From Solirubrobacterales bacterium (GTDB taxonomy: Bacteria > Actinomycetota > Thermoleophilia > Solirubrobacterales > Solirubrobacteraceae): a DNA stretch of 11,409 nucleotides. The stretch spans positions 1 through 11,409 of the forward strand of contig WQXW01000028.1 in the NCBI GenBank assembly GCA_009781575.1, in the 5' to 3' direction. The notes beneath the pieces are model-generated. The model was not told the origin of the DNA. It made no database searches and was given only the letters and a program-made list of their open reading frames with translations. Positions 319 to 10,036 of this stretch are shown here, one piece after another; position 1 is the stretch's first letter; each line of letters starts with the position of its first letter. Made by a program: the position numbers and the translations under genes.

Positions 319-324
319 TTAGCC

Positions 325-354
325 ATGCCCGCCCAGACCCACGCCGGGAAGTAG
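325..354 (+). other. Micro-ORF 1 upstream of the dehydrogenase (9 residues)
   Basis: It reads MPAQTHAGK then TAG (352-354). The next start codon (GTG 357) follows the stop by two bases, and the purine-rich GGGAAG (346-351) just before the stop could serve as its ribosome-binding site. The peptide resembles the first nine residues of the main protein (MPAQAYAGK) because both come from the 32-bp repeat. Translation is inferred from architecture only. The frame is open upstream to about position 43, so a longer product cannot be excluded. Confidence 0.35.
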
Positions 355-356
355 CC

Positions 357-386
357 GTGCCCGCCCTGACCGCCGCCGAGGAGTAG
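357..386 (+). other. Micro-ORF 2 upstream of the dehydrogenase (9 residues)
   Basis: GTG 357 opens MPALTAAEE, closed by TAG 384-386. The main start (GTG 389) is two bases beyond the stop. GAGGAG (378-383) is the last two sense codons of this micro-ORF and also a good Shine-Dalgarno sequence for GTG 389. Translation is inferred. Confidence 0.35.
378..383 (+). promoter_or_regulatory. Ribosome-binding site supporting the GTG 389 start
   Basis: GAGGAG lies five bases before GTG 389. The in-frame alternatives GTG 461 and ATG 470 have no comparable sequence at normal spacing. This supports the longer dehydrogenase form. Confidence 0.5.
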
Positions 387-388
387 CC

Positions 389-1141
389 GTGCCCGCCCAG
401 GCCTACGCCGGCAAGGAGTGCGTGTGCCAGCTGCGCAGGGGGATCTGCGATCAGAGCTGCGTGCGGGACATGCTCGAGACGCCCTTCTACATCGCGTGCC
501 TGCGCCTCTCGGGCCGCCGCTGCGTGGTGGTGGGCGGCGGCGAGGTGGGGCTCGAGAAGGTCGAGGGCCTGTTGGCGTGCGACGGCGCGGTCACGGTGAT
601 CGCCCCCGATGTGGTGGGGGAGCTCGAGGAGCTGGCGCGCGAGGGCTCGATCGCGTGGGAGCGGCGCGAGTACCGCGGCGCGAGCGACCTGGAGGGCGCG
701 TTCATGGCGATCGCGGCCACCGACAGCAGCGAGGTCAACATCGGGGTGTTCGACGACGCGGAGCGGCGCGCGATGCTGGTCAACGTGGTGGACGTGCCGC
801 CGCTGTGCAACTTCATCCTGCCGGCGATCGTGCGCAACGGGGCGCTGGCGATCGCGATCTCCACCGCGGGCGCCTCGCCGGCGCTGGCCAAGCGCATGAA
901 GCGCGAGATTGCGGCGCTCTTCGGCGAGCCCTACGCGCGGCTGGCGGTGATCCTCAACGACGCGCGCGGCTGGGCCAAGGCCACGCTGCCCACCTATCGG
1001 GAGCGCAAGGAGTTCTTCGAGGGGATCGTCAACGGCGAGCCGGACCCGGTGGCGCTCCTGAGGGCGGGCGACGAGGCGACGGTGCACGAACTGATCGCCG
1101 AGGCGCGGCGCCGCAGCGAGCGGGCGCTCCAGAGCGCCTGA
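389..1141 (+). CDS. Precorrin-2 dehydrogenase / sirohydrochlorin ferrochelatase-like (Met8p/CysG N-terminal type)
   Basis: Likely oxidises precorrin-2 to sirohydrochlorin with NAD+, and may insert iron to give siroheme, in the cytoplasm. The 250 residues show a Rossmann nucleotide loop [11 protein letters not shown] (about 47-57). The family block [17 protein letters not shown] (from about 132) contains Asp135, which aligns with the catalytic Asp of CysG/Met8p. The [18 protein letters not shown] segment that follows is also typical. The substrate comes from the CobA domain encoded at 6068. The start is uncertain: family homology begins near Met28 (ATG 470), but GTG 389 has a good ribosome-binding site, and the intervening codons have G or C at nearly every third position. 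The extra 27 residues carry four cysteines (C11, C13, C20, C24). The ferrochelatase role is inferred from family; some members only dehydrogenate. Confidence 0.88.
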
Positions 1142-3372: not shown

Positions 3373-3701
3373 TGCCGGCGCTGCCGCTGCACCAGGCAGG
3401 CCCCTACGTGGCGGCCGCGTACATCGTGGTGTTCGCGCTGGTGCTGATCTACGTGGCGATCATGGCGGTGCGGCTCACCCGCATGGAACGCACCCTGGGC
3501 GAGCTGCTGCGGCGCGGCGAGCGGGAGCGCCCCCCGGAGGGGCCGGCGCGCGAGGACAGCTCGCGCGGCGAGGAGGGCGCGCTTGCACCCGGCGGCGCCG
3601 CACCATCGAGCGGCGAGGAGGGCGCGCTCGCGCCCGGCGGCGCCGCTGGCGATGAGAGCGGGGCGCTCGATGTGGGGCGCCCGGAGCGCACGCCGGCATG
3701 A
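3372..3701 (+). CDS. ccmD: CcmD-like small membrane protein with an extended repeat tail
   Basis: CcmD stabilises the CcmABC-CcmE complex. The N-terminal part fits well: HQAGPYVAAAYIVVFAL starts a single transmembrane segment (about 11-32), followed by the basic stretch VRLTRMERTLGELLRRGER. ATG 3372 overlaps the ccmC stop and has GGAGGG at 3357-3362. At 109 residues it is clearly longer than typical CcmD (about 45-75). Residues from about 55 onward are rich in Gly, Ala, Glu and Pro and contain a 15-residue repeat (GEEGALAPGGAA twice). That tail is probably disordered and cytoplasmic. An upstream in-frame ATG (3291) inside ccmC is less likely as the start because the HxxGPY motif would then sit far from the N-terminus. 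The stop overlaps hemA by ATGA. Confidence 0.8.
   Translation: MPALPLHQAGPYVAAAYIVVFALVLIYVAIMAVRLTRMERTLGELLRRGERERPPEGPAREDSSRGEEGALAPGGAAPSSGEEGALAPGGAAGDESGALDVGRPERTPA
3565..3654 (+). repeat. 45-bp in-frame tandem repeat inside ccmD
   Basis: Two units, 3565-3609 and 3610-3654, both begin GCGGCGAGGAGGGCGCGCT and stay nearly identical for about 37 bases before diverging. The period is 15 codons, so the frame is kept. It encodes the repeated GEEGALAPGGAA. Confidence 0.85.
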
Positions 3702-5146
3702 GCGAGCTGCTGGCGCTGGGGGTTTCGCACAAGACCGCGCCGGTGGCGCTGCGCGAGCGGCTGGCGTTCACCGAGAGGCAGGCGGGCGAGTTCGCGCGCG
3801 AGCTGGTGGGCAGCCCCCAGGTTCGCGAGGCGGTGGTGATCAGCACGTGCAACCGCACCGAGGTGTACCTGGTGGCGGACCGCCCGGTGCGGGCGGAGGC
3901 GGAGGTGCTGGGCCGGCTGGCCACGCGCGCAACGATTCGCCCGACCGAGCTGGCCGAGTCGATCTACTCGCCGCGCAACTGCGAGGCGGCGCGCCAGCTG
4001 TTCCGCGTGACCGCGGGCCTCGAGTCGATGGTGCTGGGCGAGGCGGAGATCCAGGGGCAGGTGCGGCGCGCGCACGAGCACGCGCTGCAGGCGGGCGCGA
4101 GCGGGCCGCTGACCAACCGGCTCTTCAGCGCGGCGCTCACCACCGGCAAACGCGTGCGCTCGGAAACCGCGATCGGCGCCAGCCGCGTGAGCGTGCCGTC
4201 GGTGGCGGTCGATCTGGCGCGCGGCGTGCTGGGCGCGCTGGAGGGTCGCCACGTGGTGGTGATCGGCGCGGGCGAGACCAGCGAGCTGACCGCCAGCGCG
4301 CTGGCCGACCGGGGCGTGGCCACGATGTTCATCGCCAACCGTCACGCCGACCGCGCGCTCAGCCTGGCACAGCGCTTCGGCGGCTCGGTGGTGGGGCTCG
4401 AGCGCCTGCCGGAGCAGCTGGTGCAGGCGGACATCGTGGTCTCCTCGACCTCCTCGCCCCACGCGATCGTGGGCCACGAGGAGCTCGAGCTGGTGATGCG
4501 CGAGCGGGAGGGCCGCGCGCTGTTGCTGATCGACATCGCGGTGCCCCGCGACATCGACGAGCGGTGCGCGCAGATCGAGGGAGTGACGCTGTACGACATC
4601 GACGACCTGCAGTCGGTGGTGGCGCGCAACCTCGGCGCGCGCGCGGAGGAGCTGCCGCAGGCGCAGGCGATCGTGGAGGAGGAGATCCGCCGCTTCGCGC
4701 GCTGGTTGGGCCAGCTCGAGGTGCTGCCCACGGTGGGCGCCCTGCGCGAGCACGGCGTGGCGATCGTCGAGCAGGTGCTCGCCGAGAACGCGGGCCGCTG
4801 GCAATCGGCCTCGCCGCGCGACCTGGAGCGCGTGGACGCGATCGCGCGCGCGGTGATGAGCCGCCTGCTCCACGAGCCCACGATCCGCCTGCGCGGCGTG
4901 GCGGGCGATCGCAGCCACGCAACCCTCCAGCTGGTGCGCGAGCTCTTCGGCCTGGGCGAGGAGGGGGCCGAACGCAACGGCGCCCAGCGCCAGGCCAGCG
5001 TCGAGCGGCAGGGCGACGCCGAGCGGCGGAGCGGCGCCGAGCGGCAGGGCGGCACCGGACGGCAGGGCGGCGAGCGGGGCGCCGAGGCGCGGCCCACCGG
5101 CGAGCTCGCCCAGGTGCGCTCCCTCGGCGAGCGCCGCCGCCGCTGA
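3698..5146 (+). CDS. hemA: Glutamyl-tRNA reductase HemA
   Basis: First committed step of C5 tetrapyrrole synthesis: it reduces glutamyl-tRNA(Glu) to glutamate-1-semialdehyde with NADPH. The N-terminus MSELLALGVSHKTAPVALRE and the nucleophile loop ISTCNRTEVY (Cys51) are diagnostic. GLESMVLGEAEIQGQV (from about 108) completes the catalytic domain. The NADPH domain has VVIGAGETSEL (about 187-197). A helical dimerisation domain ends near residue 420 with LQLVRELFGL. Residues 424-482 are an added hydrophilic tail of six-residue repeats rich in Glu, Arg, Gln and Gly, making the protein 482 residues against about 410-450 normally. The start overlaps the ccmD stop by ATGA; the stop overlaps the hemC start by one base. 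HemL and HemB, the next enzymes, are not in this window. Confidence 0.97.
   Translation: MSELLALGVSHKTAPVALRERLAFTERQAGEFARELVGSPQVREAVVISTCNRTEVYLVADRPVRAEAEVLGRLATRATIRPTELAESIYSPRNCEAARQLFRVTAGLESMVLGEAEIQGQVRRAHEHALQAGASGPLTNRLFSAALTTGKRVRSETAIGASRVSVPSVAVDLARGVLGALEGRHVVVIGAGETSELTASALADRGVATMFIANRHADRALSLAQRFGGSVVGLERLPEQLVQADIVVSSTSSPHAIVGHEELELVMREREGRALLLIDIAVPRDIDERCAQIEGVTLYDIDDLQSVVARNLGARAEELPQAQAIVEEEIRRFARWLGQLEVLPTVGALREHGVAIVEQVLAENAGRWQSASPRDLERVDAIARAVMSRLLHEPTIRLRGVAGDRSHATLQLVRELFGLGEEGAERNGAQRQASVERQGDAERRSGAERQGGTGRQGGERGAEARPTGELAQVRSLGERRRR
4967..5089 (+). repeat. 18-bp in-frame minisatellite in the hemA tail
   Basis: From codon 424 the sequence runs in 18-base units related to GCCGAGCGGCAGGGCGGC. 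The first unit is 15 bases (4967-4981), followed by units from 4982, 5000, 5018, 5036 and 5054, then a decayed copy. The encoded units are AERNG, AQRQAS, VERQGD, AERRSG, AERQGG and TGRQGG. The period is a multiple of three, so reading continues. Confidence 0.85.
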
Positions 5147-6075
5147 TGCGCATCGGCGCCCGCGGCAGCGCGCTGGCGCTCGCCCAGGCACGTCTGGTGG
5201 CCGCACGGCTGGAAGGGGCGGAGGTCGTCGCGATCTCCACCGGCGGCGATCGCGGCGGGGGCGGCGAGAAGGCGCGCTGGGTCGACGGCCTGGAGGCGGC
5301 GCTGCTGGCGGGCGAGATCGACCTCGCGGTGCATTCGGCCAAGGACGTGCCGGGGGAGCTCGCCGAGGGGCTCGAGCTGCTGGCTTCGCCGGAGCGCGCG
5401 GGCGCGGAGGACGTGCTCTGTGGCGCGGCCGCGCTCGAGGCGCTCCCGGAGGGCGCGCGGGTGGGCACCTCGAGCGTGCGCCGTATGGCGCAGCTGCGCG
5501 CGGCGCGCGCCGACATCGAGGTGGTGGCGATGCGGGGCAACGTCGACACGCGCCTGCGCAAGCTGAACGGGGTGGCCGACGGCGGGGGAGCGGATGGGCG
5601 GGGGGCACCCCTGCACGCGATCGTGCTCGCACGCGCCGGCCTGCAGCGGCTGGGGCGCGAGCAGGAGATCGGAGCGGTGCTCGATCCGGCGCGGTTCGTG
5701 CCGGCGCCGGGGCAGGGGGCGCTCGCGCTCGAGGGGCGGCGCGACGACACGCCCACCGTGGCCGCGGCGCGCGCGATCGGGGACCCCGCGACGCTCACCT
5801 GCCTGCGCGCCGAGCGGGCACTGGCGCGCGAGCTGGACGCGACGTGCGACACGCCGCTGGGCGCACACGCGCGCGCGGCGGGCGCGGGCGCGGGCGCGCT
5901 GTGGCTGCGCGCGTGGGTGGGCGCGGCCGACGGGAGCGCATGGGTCGCGGATGAGTGGCGGGGCGCGGCGGAGGATCCCGAGGCGCTCGGCCGGCGGGTC
6001 GCGGAGCGCCTGCTGGCGGTGGGCGCGGGCGAGCTGCTGGCGCGCGCGCGGGAGGCCTCCCCCGAGCATGCCTGA
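5146..6075 (+). CDS. hemC: Porphobilinogen deaminase (hydroxymethylbilane synthase) HemC
   Basis: Polymerises four porphobilinogens to hydroxymethylbilane in the cytoplasm. In 309 residues it shows MRIGARGSALALAQA at the N-terminus, HSAKDVP (catalytic Asp67), GTSSVRRMAQL, and MRGNVDTRLRKL. The cofactor-attachment Cys234 lies in DATCDTPLGAHA. The loop between STGGD and HSAKD is about six residues shorter than in E. coli HemC and unusually glycine-rich (DRGGGGEKARWV), which may alter the active-site lid. The start is ATG 5146, sharing one base with the hemA stop; internal candidates would remove the RxS motif. Its product is the substrate of the HemD domain encoded next. Confidence 0.96.
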   Translation: MRIGARGSALALAQARLVAARLEGAEVVAISTGGDRGGGGEKARWVDGLEAALLAGEIDLAVHSAKDVPGELAEGLELLASPERAGAEDVLCGAAALEALPEGARVGTSSVRRMAQLRAARADIEVVAMRGNVDTRLRKLNGVADGGGADGRGAPLHAIVLARAGLQRLGREQEIGAVLDPARFVPAPGQGALALEGRRDDTPTVAAARAIGDPATLTCLRAERALARELDATCDTPLGAHARAAGAGAGALWLRAWVGAADGSAWVADEWRGAAEDPEALGRRVAERLLAVGAGELLARAREASPEHA

Positions 6076-7600
6076 GCGCGAGCCCGTGAGCGTGCGGCGG
6101 CGCGGCCGCGTGTACCTGGTGGGCGCGGGGCCGGGGGATCCCGGGCTGCTGACGGTGCGCGCGCGGGAGCTGATCGCGCGGGCGGATGTGATCCTGCACG
6201 ACCGCCTGATCCCGCCGGGCGTGCTGGACGGCGCGCGGCCCGCGGCGGAGCTGATCTTCGTGGGCAAGGAGGGCGGGGGCGAGTCGACGCCGCAGGCCGA
6301 GACCGAGCGGCTGCTCGTGGAGCACGCGGGGGCGGGGCGCTCGGTGGTGCGCCTGAAGGGCGGCGATCCGTTCGTGTTCGGGCGGGGCGGCGAGGAGGCG
6401 GGGGCGCTACGCGAGGCGGGCATCCCCTTCGAGGTCGTGCCGGGCGTGACCGCGGGCGTGGCGGCGCCGGCGTACGCGGGCATCCCCGTGACCCACCGGG
6501 GGCTGACGAGCGCGGTGGCGCTGATCACCGGTCACGAGGATCCGGAGAAGGAGGACACCGCGATCGACTGGGAGGCGCTCGCAGCCTTTCCGGGCACGCT
6601 GGTGTTCTACATGGGCGTGCGCCGGCTGGCGAGGATTGCACAGGAGCTGATCGCGGCGGGGCGGCCGGGGTCGGAGGCGGCGGCGGTGGTGGAGCGCGGC
6701 ACCCTCCCGGGCCAGCGCGCGGTGATCGCCACGCTGGAGACGATCGCGCAGGAGGCGGAGCGCGAGGGGATCGGAGCGCCGGCGATCACGCTGGTGGGCG
6801 CGGTGGCGCGGCTGGGCAACGAGCTGGCGTGGCTGCGGGCGGGCCCGCTGGCGGGACGCACGGTGGCGGTCACGCGCGCGCGGGCGCAGACGAGCGCGCT
6901 GGCGGAGCGCCTGGGAGAGCTCGGCGCGAGCGTGGTGCAGGCGCCGGCAATCAGGATCCGCGCGCTGGAGGGCCCGCCGCTGGACCCCTCCGGGTACGAC
7001 CTGATCTGCGTGACCAGCGCCAACGGCGTGGAGGCGCTCTTTGAGCGGCTGGCGGCGGGCGGACGCGATGCGCGCGCGCTGGCGGGCGCGCGCGTGGCGG
7101 CGATCGGCCCGGGGACCGCGCGCGCGCTGGCGGCGCACGGCATCGTGGCGGACGTGGTCCCGGAGCGCTACGTCGCCGAGGGGCTCGTGGAGGCGCTGGC
7201 GGACGTTCCGGTGAGGCATGCGCTGCTGGCGCGCGCGCGCGGCGCGCGCGAGGTGCTGGCGCGGGCGCTGCGCGAGCGGGGCGCGCAGGTGGATGAGCTC
7301 GAGCTGTACGAGTCGGTGCCCGAGAGGCTCCCCGGGGAGGTGTGGCGCGCGGCGTGGGGCGCCGACTACATCACCTTCACCTCCTCCTCGACCGTGCGCA
7401 ACTTCCTGGAGGCGGCCGGCGACGGCGCGCTGGAGGAGGGCGCGCGCGTGGTGTCGATCGGCCCGGTCACCAGCGGCACGCTGCGCGAGCACGGGCTGGA
7501 GCCCCACCTGGAGGCGGCGCGCCACGACATCGACGGCCTGCTGGAGACGCTGCTCGCGGACGCGACGGCTCGATCATCGGGCGCCGCCCCCCGATCGTGA
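6068..7600 (+). CDS. cobA-hemD: Fused uroporphyrinogen-III C-methyltransferase / uroporphyrinogen-III synthase (CobA-HemD)
   Basis: This is a 510-residue two-domain enzyme. Residues 14-255 are the SAM-dependent methyltransferase (SUMT): VYLVGAGPGDPGLLTV (15-30), VVRLKGGDPFVFGRGGEE (93-110) and EVVPGVTAG (122-130). It makes precorrin-2 from uroporphyrinogen III. Residues from about 262 (LAGRTVAVTRARAQ) to about 500 form the synthase, with ICVTSANGVEALFERL and FTSSSTVRNFLEA marking its two lobes; it closes hydroxymethylbilane to uroporphyrinogen III. Such fusions are common in actinobacteria and Firmicutes. ATG 6068 overlaps hemC by eight bases. GGGAGG (6050-6055) lies 12 bases upstream within a perfect 12-bp palindrome. 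The last residues, SSGAAPRS, are encoded by a degenerate copy of the 23-bp repeat. It feeds the haem route and, through precorrin-2, the first gene of the operon. Confidence 0.95.
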   Translation: MPEREPVSVRRRGRVYLVGAGPGDPGLLTVRARELIARADVILHDRLIPPGVLDGARPAAELIFVGKEGGGESTPQAETERLLVEHAGAGRSVVRLKGGDPFVFGRGGEEAGALREAGIPFEVVPGVTAGVAAPAYAGIPVTHRGLTSAVALITGHEDPEKEDTAIDWEALAAFPGTLVFYMGVRRLARIAQELIAAGRPGSEAAAVVERGTLPGQRAVIATLETIAQEAEREGIGAPAITLVGAVARLGNELAWLRAGPLAGRTVAVTRARAQTSALAERLGELGASVVQAPAIRIRALEGPPLDPSGYDLICVTSANGVEALFERLAAGGRDARALAGARVAAIGPGTARALAAHGIVADVVPERYVAEGLVEALADVPVRHALLARARGAREVLARALRERGAQVDELELYESVPERLPGEVWRAAWGADYITFTSSSTVRNFLEAAGDGALEEGARVVSIGPVTSGTLREHGLEPHLEAARHDIDGLLETLLADATARSSGAAPRS

Positions 7601-7623
7601 GCTCGGCCGCCCCCCGATCGTGA
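7597..7623 (+). other. Relay micro-ORF A (8 residues)
   Basis: GTG 7597 overlaps the hemD stop (TGA 7598-7600). It reads MSSAAPRS and stops at TGA 7621-7623, which overlaps the next GTG (7620). No Shine-Dalgarno sequence precedes it, so translation would depend on termination-reinitiation from hemD. Inferred from layout. Confidence 0.4.
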
Positions 7624-7646
7624 GCTCGGCCGCCCCCCGATCGTGA
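7620..7646 (+). other. Relay micro-ORF B (8 residues)
   Basis: An identical MSSAAPRS peptide from the second repeat unit. Its TGA (7644-7646) overlaps GTG 7643, the start of the SAM-hydrolase gene. Together with micro-ORF A it forms an unbroken chain of GTGA overlaps from hemD to that gene. Inferred from layout. Confidence 0.4.
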
Positions 7647-8470
7647 GCGCCCCGCCCTGGGTCACGTTCCTCTCCGACTACGGCCTGGAGGACGAGTTCG
7701 TGGGGGTGTGCCACGGCGTGATCGCGCGCCGCTGCGGGCAGGCGCGCGTGATCGACATCACCCACGCGATCCCACGCCACAACGTGCGCGCGGGCGCGTG
7801 GGCGCTGTGCGGCGCGCTGGCATACATGCCGCGCGGGGTGCACCTCGCGATCGTGGACCCCGAGGTCGGCACCCAGGAGGTGGGCGGGCGGAGGGCGGTG
7901 GCGCTGGCCACCGCCGATGAGGAGCAGCGGCTGGTGGGCCCCGACAACGGCCTGCTGATGGCCGCAGCTGAGCTGCTGGGCGGCGTGGTGGAGGCGGTGG
8001 ACATCGGCCGCTCGGAGGAGCGCCTGGAGCCGGTGTCGGCGACCTTCCACGGGCGCGACATCTTCGCGCCGGTGGCCGCGGCGCTCGCCGCGGGACGACC
8101 GCTGGCCGCGCTGGGGGAGCCGCTGGCGGTGGACGAGTTGCACACGCTCAGTCTGACGAGCGCCACCGTGCGGGACGGCGCGTTGCGCGCGCACGTGCGA
8201 CACGTGGATCGCTTCGGCAACCTGACCCTGGACGCGACGCACGCGCAGCTCGGCCAGCTGGGCCTGCGCCTCGGTCAGCGCGTGGCCGTGCACGGCGCGG
8301 GCGCCACGCACAGCGCGCGCTACGCGCGGACGTTCGCGGAGGTGCCGGCGGGGGCGCTGCTGCTCTACGAGGACAGCCGCCGCCTGGCGGCGCTGGCGGT
8401 CAACCGCGGCTCCGCGGCGCAAACGCTTGGGCTGGAGCGCGACGGCGAGCTGCGGCTGCGAGCCGAGTGA
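7643..8470 (+). CDS. S-adenosyl-L-methionine hydroxide adenosyltransferase (SAM hydrolase, DUF62 family)
   Basis: The family splits SAM into adenosine and methionine using a water-derived hydroxide. The 275 residues carry the family marks in order: TFLSDYGLEDEFVG (8-21), IDITHAIP (37-44), the VDPEVGT block (71-77, Asp72), GPDNG (99-103), SATFHGRDIFAP (132-143, His136) and DRFGNLTLD (189-197). The usual VVDPGVG glycine is Glu here, and four residues (QEVG) precede the Arg pair 83-84 that may supply the catalytic Arg. GTG 7643 is the only usable start: the frame has a stop at 7598-7600 and no other start codon in between. It has no ribosome-binding site, since the sequence before it is C-rich. 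Its place directly after a SAM-using methyltransferase is suggestive, but a link in function is inference. Confidence 0.88.
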   Translation: MSAPPWVTFLSDYGLEDEFVGVCHGVIARRCGQARVIDITHAIPRHNVRAGAWALCGALAYMPRGVHLAIVDPEVGTQEVGGRRAVALATADEEQRLVGPDNGLLMAAAELLGGVVEAVDIGRSEERLEPVSATFHGRDIFAPVAAALAAGRPLAALGEPLAVDELHTLSLTSATVRDGALRAHVRHVDRFGNLTLDATHAQLGQLGLRLGQRVAVHGAGATHSARYARTFAEVPAGALLLYEDSRRLAALAVNRGSAAQTLGLERDGELRLRAE

Positions 8471-9309
8471 CCGCGTTGGCCGCCTCCCTGGGCCACCCTC
8501 GCGTGCACCTGCGGCTCACCCGCTCGACGAACGACCACGCGCGGGCGCTGGCGATCGCGGGCGCGCCCCACGGCACGTTGGTGAGCGCCGAGGAGCAGTC
8601 GGCCGGGCGCGGGCGCCAGGGCAGGCGCTGGCTGGCTCCGCCGGGGCGGGCGCTGCTGATGTCGGTGGTGCTCAGAGACCCACCGCGACTGCTTCCGTTG
8701 GTCGCGGCGGTCGGGGTGTGCGACGCGCTCGGCGAGCGCGCGTGGATCAAGTGGCCCAACGACATCGTGATCGCACGCGGTGGCGCCAGCGCCAGCGCCG
8801 GGGCTCGGCGGGGCGAATCTCCGGGCAATCTCGGCGCGCCCCCGGACGGCGCGCCCCCGGACGGCGCGCCCCCGGACGGCGCGCCCCCGGGCGAGCGGCT
8901 GGGCAAGGTGGGGGGCATCCTGATCGAGGGGCGCCCCCAACAGGGTTGGGCGGTGGTGGGCGTCGGCCTCAACGTGGCGGTGCGCCCCAAAGACCTGCCG
9001 GCGGAGCTGCGCCGGAGCGCGGCCACCCTGGGCGAGCACCCGGAGGCAGTCGAGATGCTGCTGGCCTGCGTGCTGGAGGCGCTGGAACGCCGCCTGGGCG
9101 AGCCGCGGGCCGCCACGCTGGAGGCGTGGCGCGCGCGCGATGCGCTGCGCGGCCGCCAGGTGAGCTGGCAGGAGGGCGCCGGCAGGGCCGAGGGGATCGA
9201 CGATCGGGGCCGCCTGGTGGTGCGCGGGGCGCAGGGCGAGCGGTGCGCGCTGGACGCGGGCGAGGTGCACCTGGAACAGCGCGTCACATCCCCGCGACAG
9301 ACCGGCTGA
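8467..9309 (+). CDS. birA: Biotin--[acetyl-CoA-carboxylase] ligase BirA, monofunctional
   Basis: Makes biotinyl-AMP and transfers biotin to carboxyl-carrier lysines. In 280 residues it shows RSTNDHAR (19-26), SAGRGRQGRRW (45-55, the GRGRxG adenylate loop), IKWPNDIVI (94-102), KVGGILIEG (147-155, catalytic-type Lys147) and VVGVGLNV (163-170). There is no N-terminal helix-turn-helix, so it is a group I ligase without repressor function. About 43 residues (104-146), rich in Ala, Gly and Pro and including four GAPPD/GAPPG units, are inserted between WPND and Lys147, where E. coli BirA has a short hairpin. GTG 8467 overlaps the preceding stop (GTGA). It is the last gene of the operon. Confidence 0.93.
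   Translation: MTALAASLGHPRVHLRLTRSTNDHARALAIAGAPHGTLVSAEEQSAGRGRQGRRWLAPPGRALLMSVVLRDPPRLLPLVAAVGVCDALGERAWIKWPNDIVIARGGASASAGARRGESPGNLGAPPDGAPPDGAPPDGAPPGERLGKVGGILIEGRPQQGWAVVGVGLNVAVRPKDLPAELRRSAATLGEHPEAVEMLLACVLEALERRLGEPRAATLEAWRARDALRGRQVSWQEGAGRAEGIDDRGRLVVRGAQGERCALDAGEVHLEQRVTSPRQTG
8833..8892 (+). repeat. 15-bp in-frame tandem repeat in birA, four units
   Basis: GGCGCGCCCCCGGAC is repeated at 8833, 8848 and 8863, identical in all three, with a final unit at 8878 ending GGC instead of GAC. It encodes GAPPD three times and GAPPG once. The identity suggests recent slippage. Confidence 0.9.
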
Positions 9310-9318
9310 ACCCACGCT

Positions 9319-9360
9319 CTAGCCCACAGTGTGCTAGCGTTGCTGTCAATGACAGCAACG
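9319..9360. promoter_or_regulatory. Two adjacent palindromes upstream of the toxin-antitoxin genes (likely operator)
   Basis: The first palindrome has arms CTAGCCCAC (9319-9327) and GTGTGCTAG (9331-9339 region), one mismatch, centre AGT. It is followed at once by a perfect palindrome with 11-bp arms CGTTGCTGTCA (9338-9348) and TGACAGCAACG (9350-9360) around one base. Paired inverted repeats ahead of an antitoxin gene usually bind the antitoxin-toxin complex for autoregulation. TAGCGT (9335-9340) is a possible -10 lying across the two palindromes. The perfect stem could also help end the birA transcript, but no T-run follows. Confidence 0.6.
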
Positions 9361-9374
9361 AGCATCCCCGCGAC

Positions 9375-9620
9375 GTGGCGACGCTGACGGTCCGCGGGCT
9401 CGACGAGGGGACAAAGGCGCGGCTGCGCATGAGGGCTGCGGCGCATGGCCGTTCGATGGAGGGCGAGGTGCGCGCCATACTCGAGGAAACGCTGCCACCA
9501 CAGACTGCGCGGGGCGCGTTGGGCAGTCGCATTCACGCACGGTTCGCGGCTGTGGGCGGCGTGGAGCTCGATCTCCCGACTCGGCGTGAGATGCCCCGCG
9601 CGGCGAGCATTCAAGCGTGA
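9375..9620 (+). CDS. FitA-like antitoxin (ribbon-helix-helix/Phd-type small DNA-binding protein)
   Basis: An 81-residue protein beginning VATLTVRGLDEGTKARLRMR, then AAAHGRSMEGEVRAILEETL. This is the ribbon-helix-helix pattern of FitA-family antitoxins, in which the TLTVR strand contacts DNA and AAxHGRSME-EVR forms the helices. The C-terminal part (about 45-81) should bind and inhibit the PIN toxin. GTG 9375 places the strand at the usual N-terminus and is the only nearby start in frame; no ribosome-binding site is evident. It overlaps the toxin gene by GTGA. The palindromes just upstream are the expected binding site. The module has somewhat lower GC and less biased codons than the operon before it, in keeping with separate acquisition. 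Confidence 0.82.
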   Translation: MATLTVRGLDEGTKARLRMRAAAHGRSMEGEVRAILEETLPPQTARGALGSRIHARFAAVGGVELDLPTRREMPRAASIQA

Positions 9621-10036
9621 TCCTGCTGGACACGAACGTCGTCTCCGAGGTCATCCGCGCGGAGCCCGAGGAGCGCGTGCTCACCTGGATGGACTCGCTC
9701 GAGGTGGCAAGCGTGGCGATCACGGCCATCACTCACGCGGAGCTTCTCTACAGCGTCGCTCGCCTCCCCGACGGCAGGCGCTCCGAGCAGCTGAGCGAGA
9801 CCATCCGTGCGCTGATCGATGAGGATCTGGGCGGCCGGGTCGAGCCGTTTGACGCCGCCGCGGCCACCCACTACGCGACTCTCGTCAGCGCGCGAGAGCG
9901 GGCCGGTCGCCCGATCGGCGTCGCCGACGGCCAGATCGCCGCGATCGCTCGCAAGCTGGGCGCCACACTCGCCACTCGCGATACATCCGACTTCGAGAGC
10001 ACGGGGATCGAGCTGCTGGATCCCTGGCTCGAGTGA
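9617..10036 (+). CDS. PIN-domain ribonuclease toxin (VapC/FitB type)
   Basis: A predicted Mg2+-dependent RNase of 139 residues. The acidic active-site set is complete: Asp5 (LLDTNVVSE), Glu42 (THAELLYSVARL), Asp104 (GVADGQIAAIA) and Asp122 (ATRDTSDF). The GRPIGVADGQIAAIAR and TRDTSDFESTGIELLDPW blocks are very like FitB-family toxins. GTG 9617 overlaps the antitoxin stop, as is usual for such pairs, so toxin translation is probably coupled to the antitoxin. The stop TGA (10034-10036) directly adjoins the stop of the convergent gene (TCA 10037-10039). The RNA target cannot be read from sequence. Confidence 0.88.
   Translation: MILLDTNVVSEVIRAEPEERVLTWMDSLEVASVAITAITHAELLYSVARLPDGRRSEQLSETIRALIDEDLGGRVEPFDAAAATHYATLVSARERAGRPIGVADGQIAAIARKLGATLATRDTSDFESTGIELLDPWLE

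Follow-up and report, generated by a model that had tools for sequence, protein, structure and literature searches.

Small open reading frames (ORFs) coupled by a short overlap to the next gene are known from the mycobacterial interspersed repetitive units (MIRU). A comparable arrangement was analyzed here in an 11,409-nt stretch of a Solirubrobacterales bacterium (assembly GCA_009781575.1, contig WQXW01000028.1; the window, below, is this whole stretch), where a tandem array of a 23-bp unit joins a cobA-hemD fusion gene to the gene for an S-adenosylmethionine (SAM) hydrolase. In MIRU the small ORF overlaps the adjacent gene by 4 nt (-4) and becomes coupled to it, and the units appear to be mobile, to be dispersed as a family and to insert at start codons (PMC12548453). 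Three MIRU units, of 77 or 53 bp, occupy the senX3-regX3 interval (PMC4213456). The small ORF of the junction array also overlaps its downstream gene by -4 nt; the MIRU lengths, like 23, leave a remainder of two on division by three (2 mod 3). MIRUs arranged in tandem would likewise involve several hops. In contrast to MIRU, the junction unit measures 23 bp rather than 53-77 bp, its named relatives are Solirubrobacterales and not Mycobacterium, and there is no dispersed family, each locus having its own unit, apparently copied in place. Membership in an interspersed family was ruled out, as the unit was found only at its own locus in the 2.25-Mb assembly (up to 3 mismatches allowed).

In E. 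coli and Haloferax volcanii, coupling has been described for gene pairs with a -4 overlap (PMC10666635; PMC6728339). Each hop at the junction has this geometry (ATGA/GTGA) on the same strand, with coupling suggested here by the sequence; the pairs described in these sources are single hops between real genes, whereas the junction holds nonsense micro-ORFs in series. Delivery of ribosomes by short ORFs is also described (review PMC12548453; synthetic nfORF PMC13255528), and here too a short, meaningless ORF directly upstream would hand ribosomes to the target gene. The synthetic nfORF has a strong ribosome-binding site (RBS), whereas the junction array is tandem-repeated and contains no Shine-Dalgarno or RBS motif. 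Like variable number tandem repeats (VNTRs) or minisatellites, the junction units are perfect, head-to-tail and slippage-prone, but a VNTR by definition also varies in copy number between strains. Apart from MIRU, no multi-hop tandem relay was found described in the titles and opening lines of abstracts listed by the literature searches, which is no proof of absence. The arrays reported here are locus-specific start-stop relay arrays, probably arisen by local duplication, that work like MIRU and are not MIRU.

Anatomy of the relay at the hemD/SAM-hydrolase junction

The 23-bp unit (GCCGCCCCCCGATCGTGAGCTCG) spans 7583-7648 in 2.87 copies with 100% identity, and Tandem Repeats Finder (TRF) returned a period of 23, 2.9 copies, a match of 100% and a score of 132. 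A perfect three-copy array is no chance match; its copy number is that given by the assembler, as the genome is fragmented (2.25 Mb in 401 contigs, 73% complete) and the window corresponds to the entire contig C28. GTGA occurs at 7597, 7620 and 7643, and the hemD stop (TGA 7598-7600) lies inside the first unit. The traced path led from this stop through two micro-ORFs, both translated as MSSAAPRS (GTG start read as M), to the SAM hydrolase in unbroken GTGA overlaps, each hop being a same-strand stop/start overlap of 4 nt. The initial annotation had described this 23-bp repeat and relay, and both proved exact by TRF, GTGA positions and chain trace. It had also named GTG 7643 as the only start in its frame after the stop at 7598. 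No ATG, GTG, TTG or CTG was found in that frame between the two positions, and the SAM hydrolases of genus relatives align from residues 2-5 onward (13 of 13 rows, own genome included). Therefore, GTG 7643 must be the start. The two micro-ORFs are identical because of duplication, and no peptide function is implied.

An attenuator or leader peptide was also considered for the array and ruled out: MSSAAPRS has no codon run, and the RNA fold of the array was no better than that of shuffled sequences (z = +1.62; 195 of 200 shuffles folded at least as well).

A unit that holds a 4-nt overlap always brings its own stop and start. If its period is 2 mod 3, a frame that begins in one copy closes on the overlap of the next, at any copy number. 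When extra units were computed, the 23-bp unit kept the relay with 0 to 6 of them, a 22-bp unit entered the gene out of frame at odd numbers of extra copies, and a 21-bp unit lengthened the protein. Because each unit carries its own GTGA and 23 is 2 mod 3, whole-unit copy changes cannot break the phase; the suggestion that phase-breaking repeat numbers in relatives would refute the relay therefore described an outcome that whole-unit changes cannot produce. Whether a repeat with one GTGA yields a relay depends on its period length, and a suitable period such as 23 bp has a chance of 1 in 3; the junction taken alone reveals little beyond this coincidence.

hemD lies just upstream of the SAM hydrolase in 10 of 12 other genus loci. 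An alignment of this junction in related genomes had been proposed as a check on copy number and GTGA phase; the 4-nt overlap was recovered in three loci (L003, L010 and L013), but no TRF array crosses the junction in any of the 12. L002 has a TGATG overlap (read on the same contig as L034), the remaining junctions range from -14 to +41 nt except for 157 nt in L011, and weak short arrays (TRF score 40) occur further upstream in L006 and L011 only. The ancestral junction was probably a plain 4-nt GTGA overlap, at which a ribosome finishing hemD would restart at the SAM-hydrolase GTG.

Recurrence of relay arrays and their excess of 2-mod-3 periods

Other arrays were sought in an own-genome sample of 895,777 bp (81 contigs including the window, about 40% of the genome), with 819 called genes, 532 same-strand neighbours and 84 of these with a 4-nt overlap. 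Genes were called with a simple codon-usage caller, which placed the window genes as expected and gives approximate starts elsewhere. The sample contained 851 tandem arrays of period at least 9 bp in 896 kb, or 95 per 100 kb, compared with 26, 40 and 27 per 100 kb in stretches of 309, 357 and 201 kb from three genus relatives. No array repeating a called start was found in those three stretches. Start-codon-duplicating arrays in the own-genome sample numbered ten (one row per array and strand, nearest called start; two 1-mod-3 rows, L137 and L209, were left out, lying 222 and 270 nt before the called start). Eight of the ten periods were 2 mod 3 (23, 32, 17, 20, 20, 17, 17 and 14), where one third would be expected (P = 0.003); two were 0 mod 3 and in-frame (L133, L230), and none was 1 mod 3. 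Seven of the eight 2-mod-3 arrays end in an RTGA overlap (R, A or G). The exception, the 32-bp array in the window, has the form TAG-CC-RTG and three units at 79%; its micro-ORFs at 325-354 (MPAQTHAGK, then stop) and 357-386 (MPALTAAEE, then stop) lead to GTG 389 of a siroheme-synthase-like gene. It precedes the first called gene of the window, with no gene called upstream.

Among arrays whose unit contains the RTGA stop of the upstream gene and whose next gene is co-directional, five had a period of 2 mod 3 and one of 0 mod 3. Complete chains from the upstream stop were traced at nine arrays (window 7583, L136, L142, L144, L156, L206, L225, L131 and L127). At L127 the chain leads to a start that lies 5' of the one called, and automatic gene calling may misplace starts in relay regions in this way. 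Where spacing is uneven (L131, L206) or the unit is 0 mod 3 (L127, 21 bp), the last micro-ORF still ends on the gene-start RTGA. Units and micro-peptides differ among loci beyond the start context, as judged by eye, so that neither a mobile family nor a binding site nor a functional peptide seems likely.

For the relay statistics, co-directional own-genome pairs whose two RTGA-bearing ends are separated by 8-160 nt were used, and 16 of 27 were relay-connected. Shuffled interiors gave 7.5 (standard deviation, sd, 1.1) and shuffling with phase jitter 7.3 (sd 2.2), with 0 of 1000 trials reaching 16 in either case. Connection was more frequent with an array (9/10) than without one (7/17, P = 0.016). 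In 15 arrays, changes affected 5 of 260 RTGA positions and 54 of 851 other positions (P = 0.002, A/G at the first base treated as unchanged; P = 0.02 when scored on TGA alone). Since the arrays of relatives were found by the RTGA pattern, which biases toward intact RTGA, the own-genome arrays were also counted alone (4/148 vs. 40/478, P = 0.01).

A pattern of three spaced RTGAG motifs is non-specific: it matched at least 129 of the 146 genomes of the family, and most matches lay outside tandem arrays. Among the matches listed, the own genome had 18 against 0 in the reversed control, and G010, G011 and G019 had 27, 18 and 17 against 2, 1 and 0. Matches in the family and class-wide scans were judged to be arrays by eye. 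Of the first six 2-mod-3 arrays among the family matches listed, five were relays (L255, L256, L258, L259 and L260, the last two from other genera) and L257 was not. L258 (G010:C237:5500-6200) is a 17-bp micro-ORF relay whose first ATG lies 14 nt beyond the upstream stop. Its downstream product (MSRSSKKGPWVEDRLLARI) we take to be ribosomal protein S19 (rpsS), and the upstream frame is presumably the end of an L2-like gene; a strongly expressed operon of this kind would suit as a test case. L260 has four micro-ORFs (MSDELG, MSNELG, MSNELG, MSDELG) before MSDASLAALV. Sixteen further arrays of all periods included two clear relays (L264, 26 bp; L266, 18 + 17 bp), five arrays inside genes (L261, L263, L265, L271, L276), two in-frame start repeats (L272, 21 bp, own genome; L274, 27 bp), one 28-bp array at the 3' end of a gene whose neighbour, judging by codon composition, probably lies on the reverse strand (L268), and six unclear arrays (L262, L267, L269, L270, L273, L275); of the sixteen, only L264 and L266 were counted as relays. 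L289 and, in another family, L292 and L293 are also relays. RTGA units per relay ranged from 2 to 7 across loci.

The class-wide scan covered 399 genomes each for 17-bp and 16-bp RTGAG arrays. The relay enters the coding frame in 9 of 15 arrays of 17 bp (L136, L206, L255, L256, L258, L260, L289, L292, L293) and in 1 of 8 of 16 bp (L280; P = 0.04). L287 (17 bp), which joins its gene only via a TAGTG overlap as judged by eye, was left out of the nine; with it the comparison is 10/15 (P = 0.02). Eight RTGA units each were seen at L286 (G269:C73, 17 bp) and L281 (G092:C154, 16 bp), with no clear downstream coding frame in either stretch.

Table 1. Coordinates of the relay features in the window
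Feature	Position	Strand	Basis
Second relay-like array, 32-bp unit x3 (79%), TAG-CC-RTG	320..415	+	TRF, chain trace
cobA-hemD fusion gene	6068..7600	+	Pfam TP_methylase PF00590 + HEM4 PF02602 (6074-7597), gene call
Repeat unit 1, 23 bp, with hemD stop and GTG 7597 as GTGA	7583..7605	+	
Repeat unit 2, 23 bp, GTGA at 7620	7606..7628	+	
Repeat unit 3, 20/23 bp, GTGA at 7643 = SAM-hydrolase start	7629..7648	+	
Micro-ORF 1, MSSAAPRS, start overlapping hemD stop by 4 nt	7597..7623	+	
Micro-ORF 2, MSSAAPRS, stop overlapping GTG 7643 by 4 nt	7620..7646	+	
SAM hydrolase (SAM hydroxide adenosyltransferase), 275 aa, GTG start	7643..8470	+	PF01887 + PF20257

Probable retained coupling and its alternatives

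The most probable origin of the arrays is that 4-nt overlaps were duplicated locally in tandem and persisted wherever a multi-hop relay preserved the stop-restart coupling. Slippage during replication of this high-GC genome, rich in repeats, would copy the overlap in tandem; as 23 = 3 x 7 + 2, each copied GTG would open an 8-codon frame ending at the next GTGA, and the coupling would become three successive stop-restarts, the ribosome passing from hemD into micro-ORF 1, then into micro-ORF 2 and finally into the SAM hydrolase. The relay would persist with a 2-mod-3 period, 0 mod 3 would lengthen the protein and 1 mod 3 would put odd extra copies out of frame, and purifying selection on coupling would leave 2-mod-3 arrays at co-directional junctions. 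Phase seems to matter because the architecture recurs with other units and the periods are biased to 2 mod 3 (8/10). Ribosomes presumably make the hops through the chain, the phase would be kept by selection rather than chance, and output would be expected to drop with each hop.

The initial annotation had taken the missing Shine-Dalgarno sequence at GTG 7643 as an argument for reinitiation. This argument failed, as SD-like motifs precede just 19 of 84 four-base-overlap starts (antisense-motif control 3) and 70 of 475 other starts after long gaps or divergent neighbours (control 15); after gaps of 0-60 nt the count was 16 of 155 (control 5). Absence of the motif is ordinary in this genome. The relay interpretation itself held in so far as the architecture recurs at other junctions with the 2-mod-3 bias, and gave way in its Shine-Dalgarno and phase-breaking arguments. 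Reinitiation in native pairs needs overlaps or very short gaps; of three E. coli pairs set at +38 nt, two lost 80-90% of it and the third lost it entirely (PMC10666635). Without hops, a ribosome leaving the hemD stop would have to reach GTG 7643 across +42 nt, probably with poor efficiency, whereas each relay hop keeps the favoured -4 geometry. In the same source, 15 nt of upstream sequence were sufficient where a long reading frame ended. The micro-ORFs at the junction are free frames of 8 codons, and such short ORFs presumably support reinitiation here as well.

Pure neutral slippage is the alternative that survives best, although we consider it rather unlikely. Under it the duplication would have no translational meaning, the SAM hydrolase would initiate de novo at GTG 7643, and the relay geometry would be a by-product of the 2-mod-3 period, which yields a relay automatically. 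The genome is repeat-rich, the genes of the window alone carry in-frame 45-, 18- and 15-bp arrays, and SD-like motifs are rare across all start classes. Against it stand the 2-mod-3 bias of the start-duplicating arrays, the relay excess over shuffles, the lower rate of change at RTGA compared with the rest of the unit, and the relays kept by unevenly spaced arrays (L131, L206, L255, L266).

Several observations nevertheless weigh against retained coupling. The existence of arrays is explained by neutral slippage, because arrays are dense genome-wide (95 vs. 26-40 per 100 kb), and an SD-poor genome could start the SAM hydrolase without any relay. A bicistronic reporter cited within PMC10666635 reinitiated across 73 nt. 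Junction arrays without a relay occur at L257, L227, L272 and L146: in L257 and L227 the upstream gene itself continues to the last copy, L227 (14 bp) being among the eight 2-mod-3 start arrays; L272 is an in-frame start repeat (0 mod 3). With phase jitter alone and interiors kept, the relay null rose to 11.1 (sd 2.3) and 28 of 1000 trials reached 16. For arrays alone, 9/10 was reached in 109 of 3000 phase-jittered trials; phase-jittered arrays often stay connected because many RTGAs heal the frame by themselves. The three relatives jointly had 6 of 11 pairs relay-connected, all without arrays, and their nulls reached 6 in 27, 48 and 178 of 1000 trials, a borderline result. Class-wide, about 15 loci at 17 bp against about 8 at 16 bp, counted by eye, did not differ clearly (P = 0.1). 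L280, with 16 bp, relays by skipping a unit. L282 (16 bp) ends at a contig edge, and without it the comparison becomes 9/15 vs. 1/7 (P = 0.06; P = 0.03 if L287 is additionally counted).

A copy-number rheostat would be an addition to retained coupling rather than a replacement: slippage would shift the repeat number and, with a reinitiation efficiency below 1 per hop, set the SAM-hydrolase level against the heme enzymes. The tolerance of 0 to 6 extra units, the 2 to 7 RTGA units in relays at different loci and the identical, so recently copied, units at the junction are consistent with it. However, no copy-number variation was observable at the locus, with no strain found closer than about 68% protein identity, many arrays also lie inside genes of the same genome, and no reason was found for tuning the SAM hydrolase. 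We regard the rheostat as unlikely.

It is very unlikely that the array acts at the DNA or RNA level, as an operator, promoter or structured leader, with the micro-ORFs incidental. Each full unit and its neighbour contain the 6-bp palindromes CGATCG, GAGCTC and CGGCCG, and the MIRU-holding senX3-regX3 interval is reported to drive senX3-independent regX3 expression (PMC4213456). Given that promoter activity, a promoter may lie within such an array despite the consensus scan, which covered sigma-70 type and intrinsic-terminator consensus only and detected no such site at 7200-8600. The fold result speaks against a structured leader, and the sequence differences among relay arrays elsewhere, seen by eye beyond the start context, against a shared element. 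Read-through of one TGA, which would fuse hemD and the SAM hydrolase because their frames coincide at three units (2 extra), was rejected as extremely improbable, since the coincidence holds in one copy number of three and both genes share a frame in only 2 of 9 array-bearing relay pairs (junction array, L225).

Genomic setting and implications

The nearest named relatives of the genome are Solirubrobacteraceae/Solirubrobacterales bins. Siroheme, cytochrome-c maturation and heme pathway genes occur throughout the window, the ccm gene names being our reading of the proteins; cobA-hemD and the SAM hydrolase both belong to well-known enzyme families. In-frame coding arrays were seen at 3561-3646 (45 bp x1.9, small gene preceding hemA), 4978-5072 (18 bp x5.3, near the hemA end) and 8832-8890 (15 bp x3.9, encoding PDGAP repeats in the biotin ligase gene). 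Following that gene, at about 9340-10036, a small frame resembling a ribbon-helix antitoxin by eye is followed by a PIN-domain protein (PF01850), and the two are likely a VapBC-type pair.

A broader reading, tentative and rather unlikely as it stands, is that high-GC Solirubrobacterales and their class repeatedly evolve serial relays in place at operon junctions, out of differing sequences and with 2-6 restarts, and that slippage in unit number attenuates the downstream gene in heritable steps. If retained coupling is true, these junctions would form a natural series of 2-6 restarts, mostly without Shine-Dalgarno-like motifs, in which repeated restart and the cost per hop could be tested. A period of 2 mod 3 is suggested as a simple rule by which slippage may alter operon junctions without breaking coupling, and as a possible route by which MIRU-like elements may arise from any 4-nt overlap.

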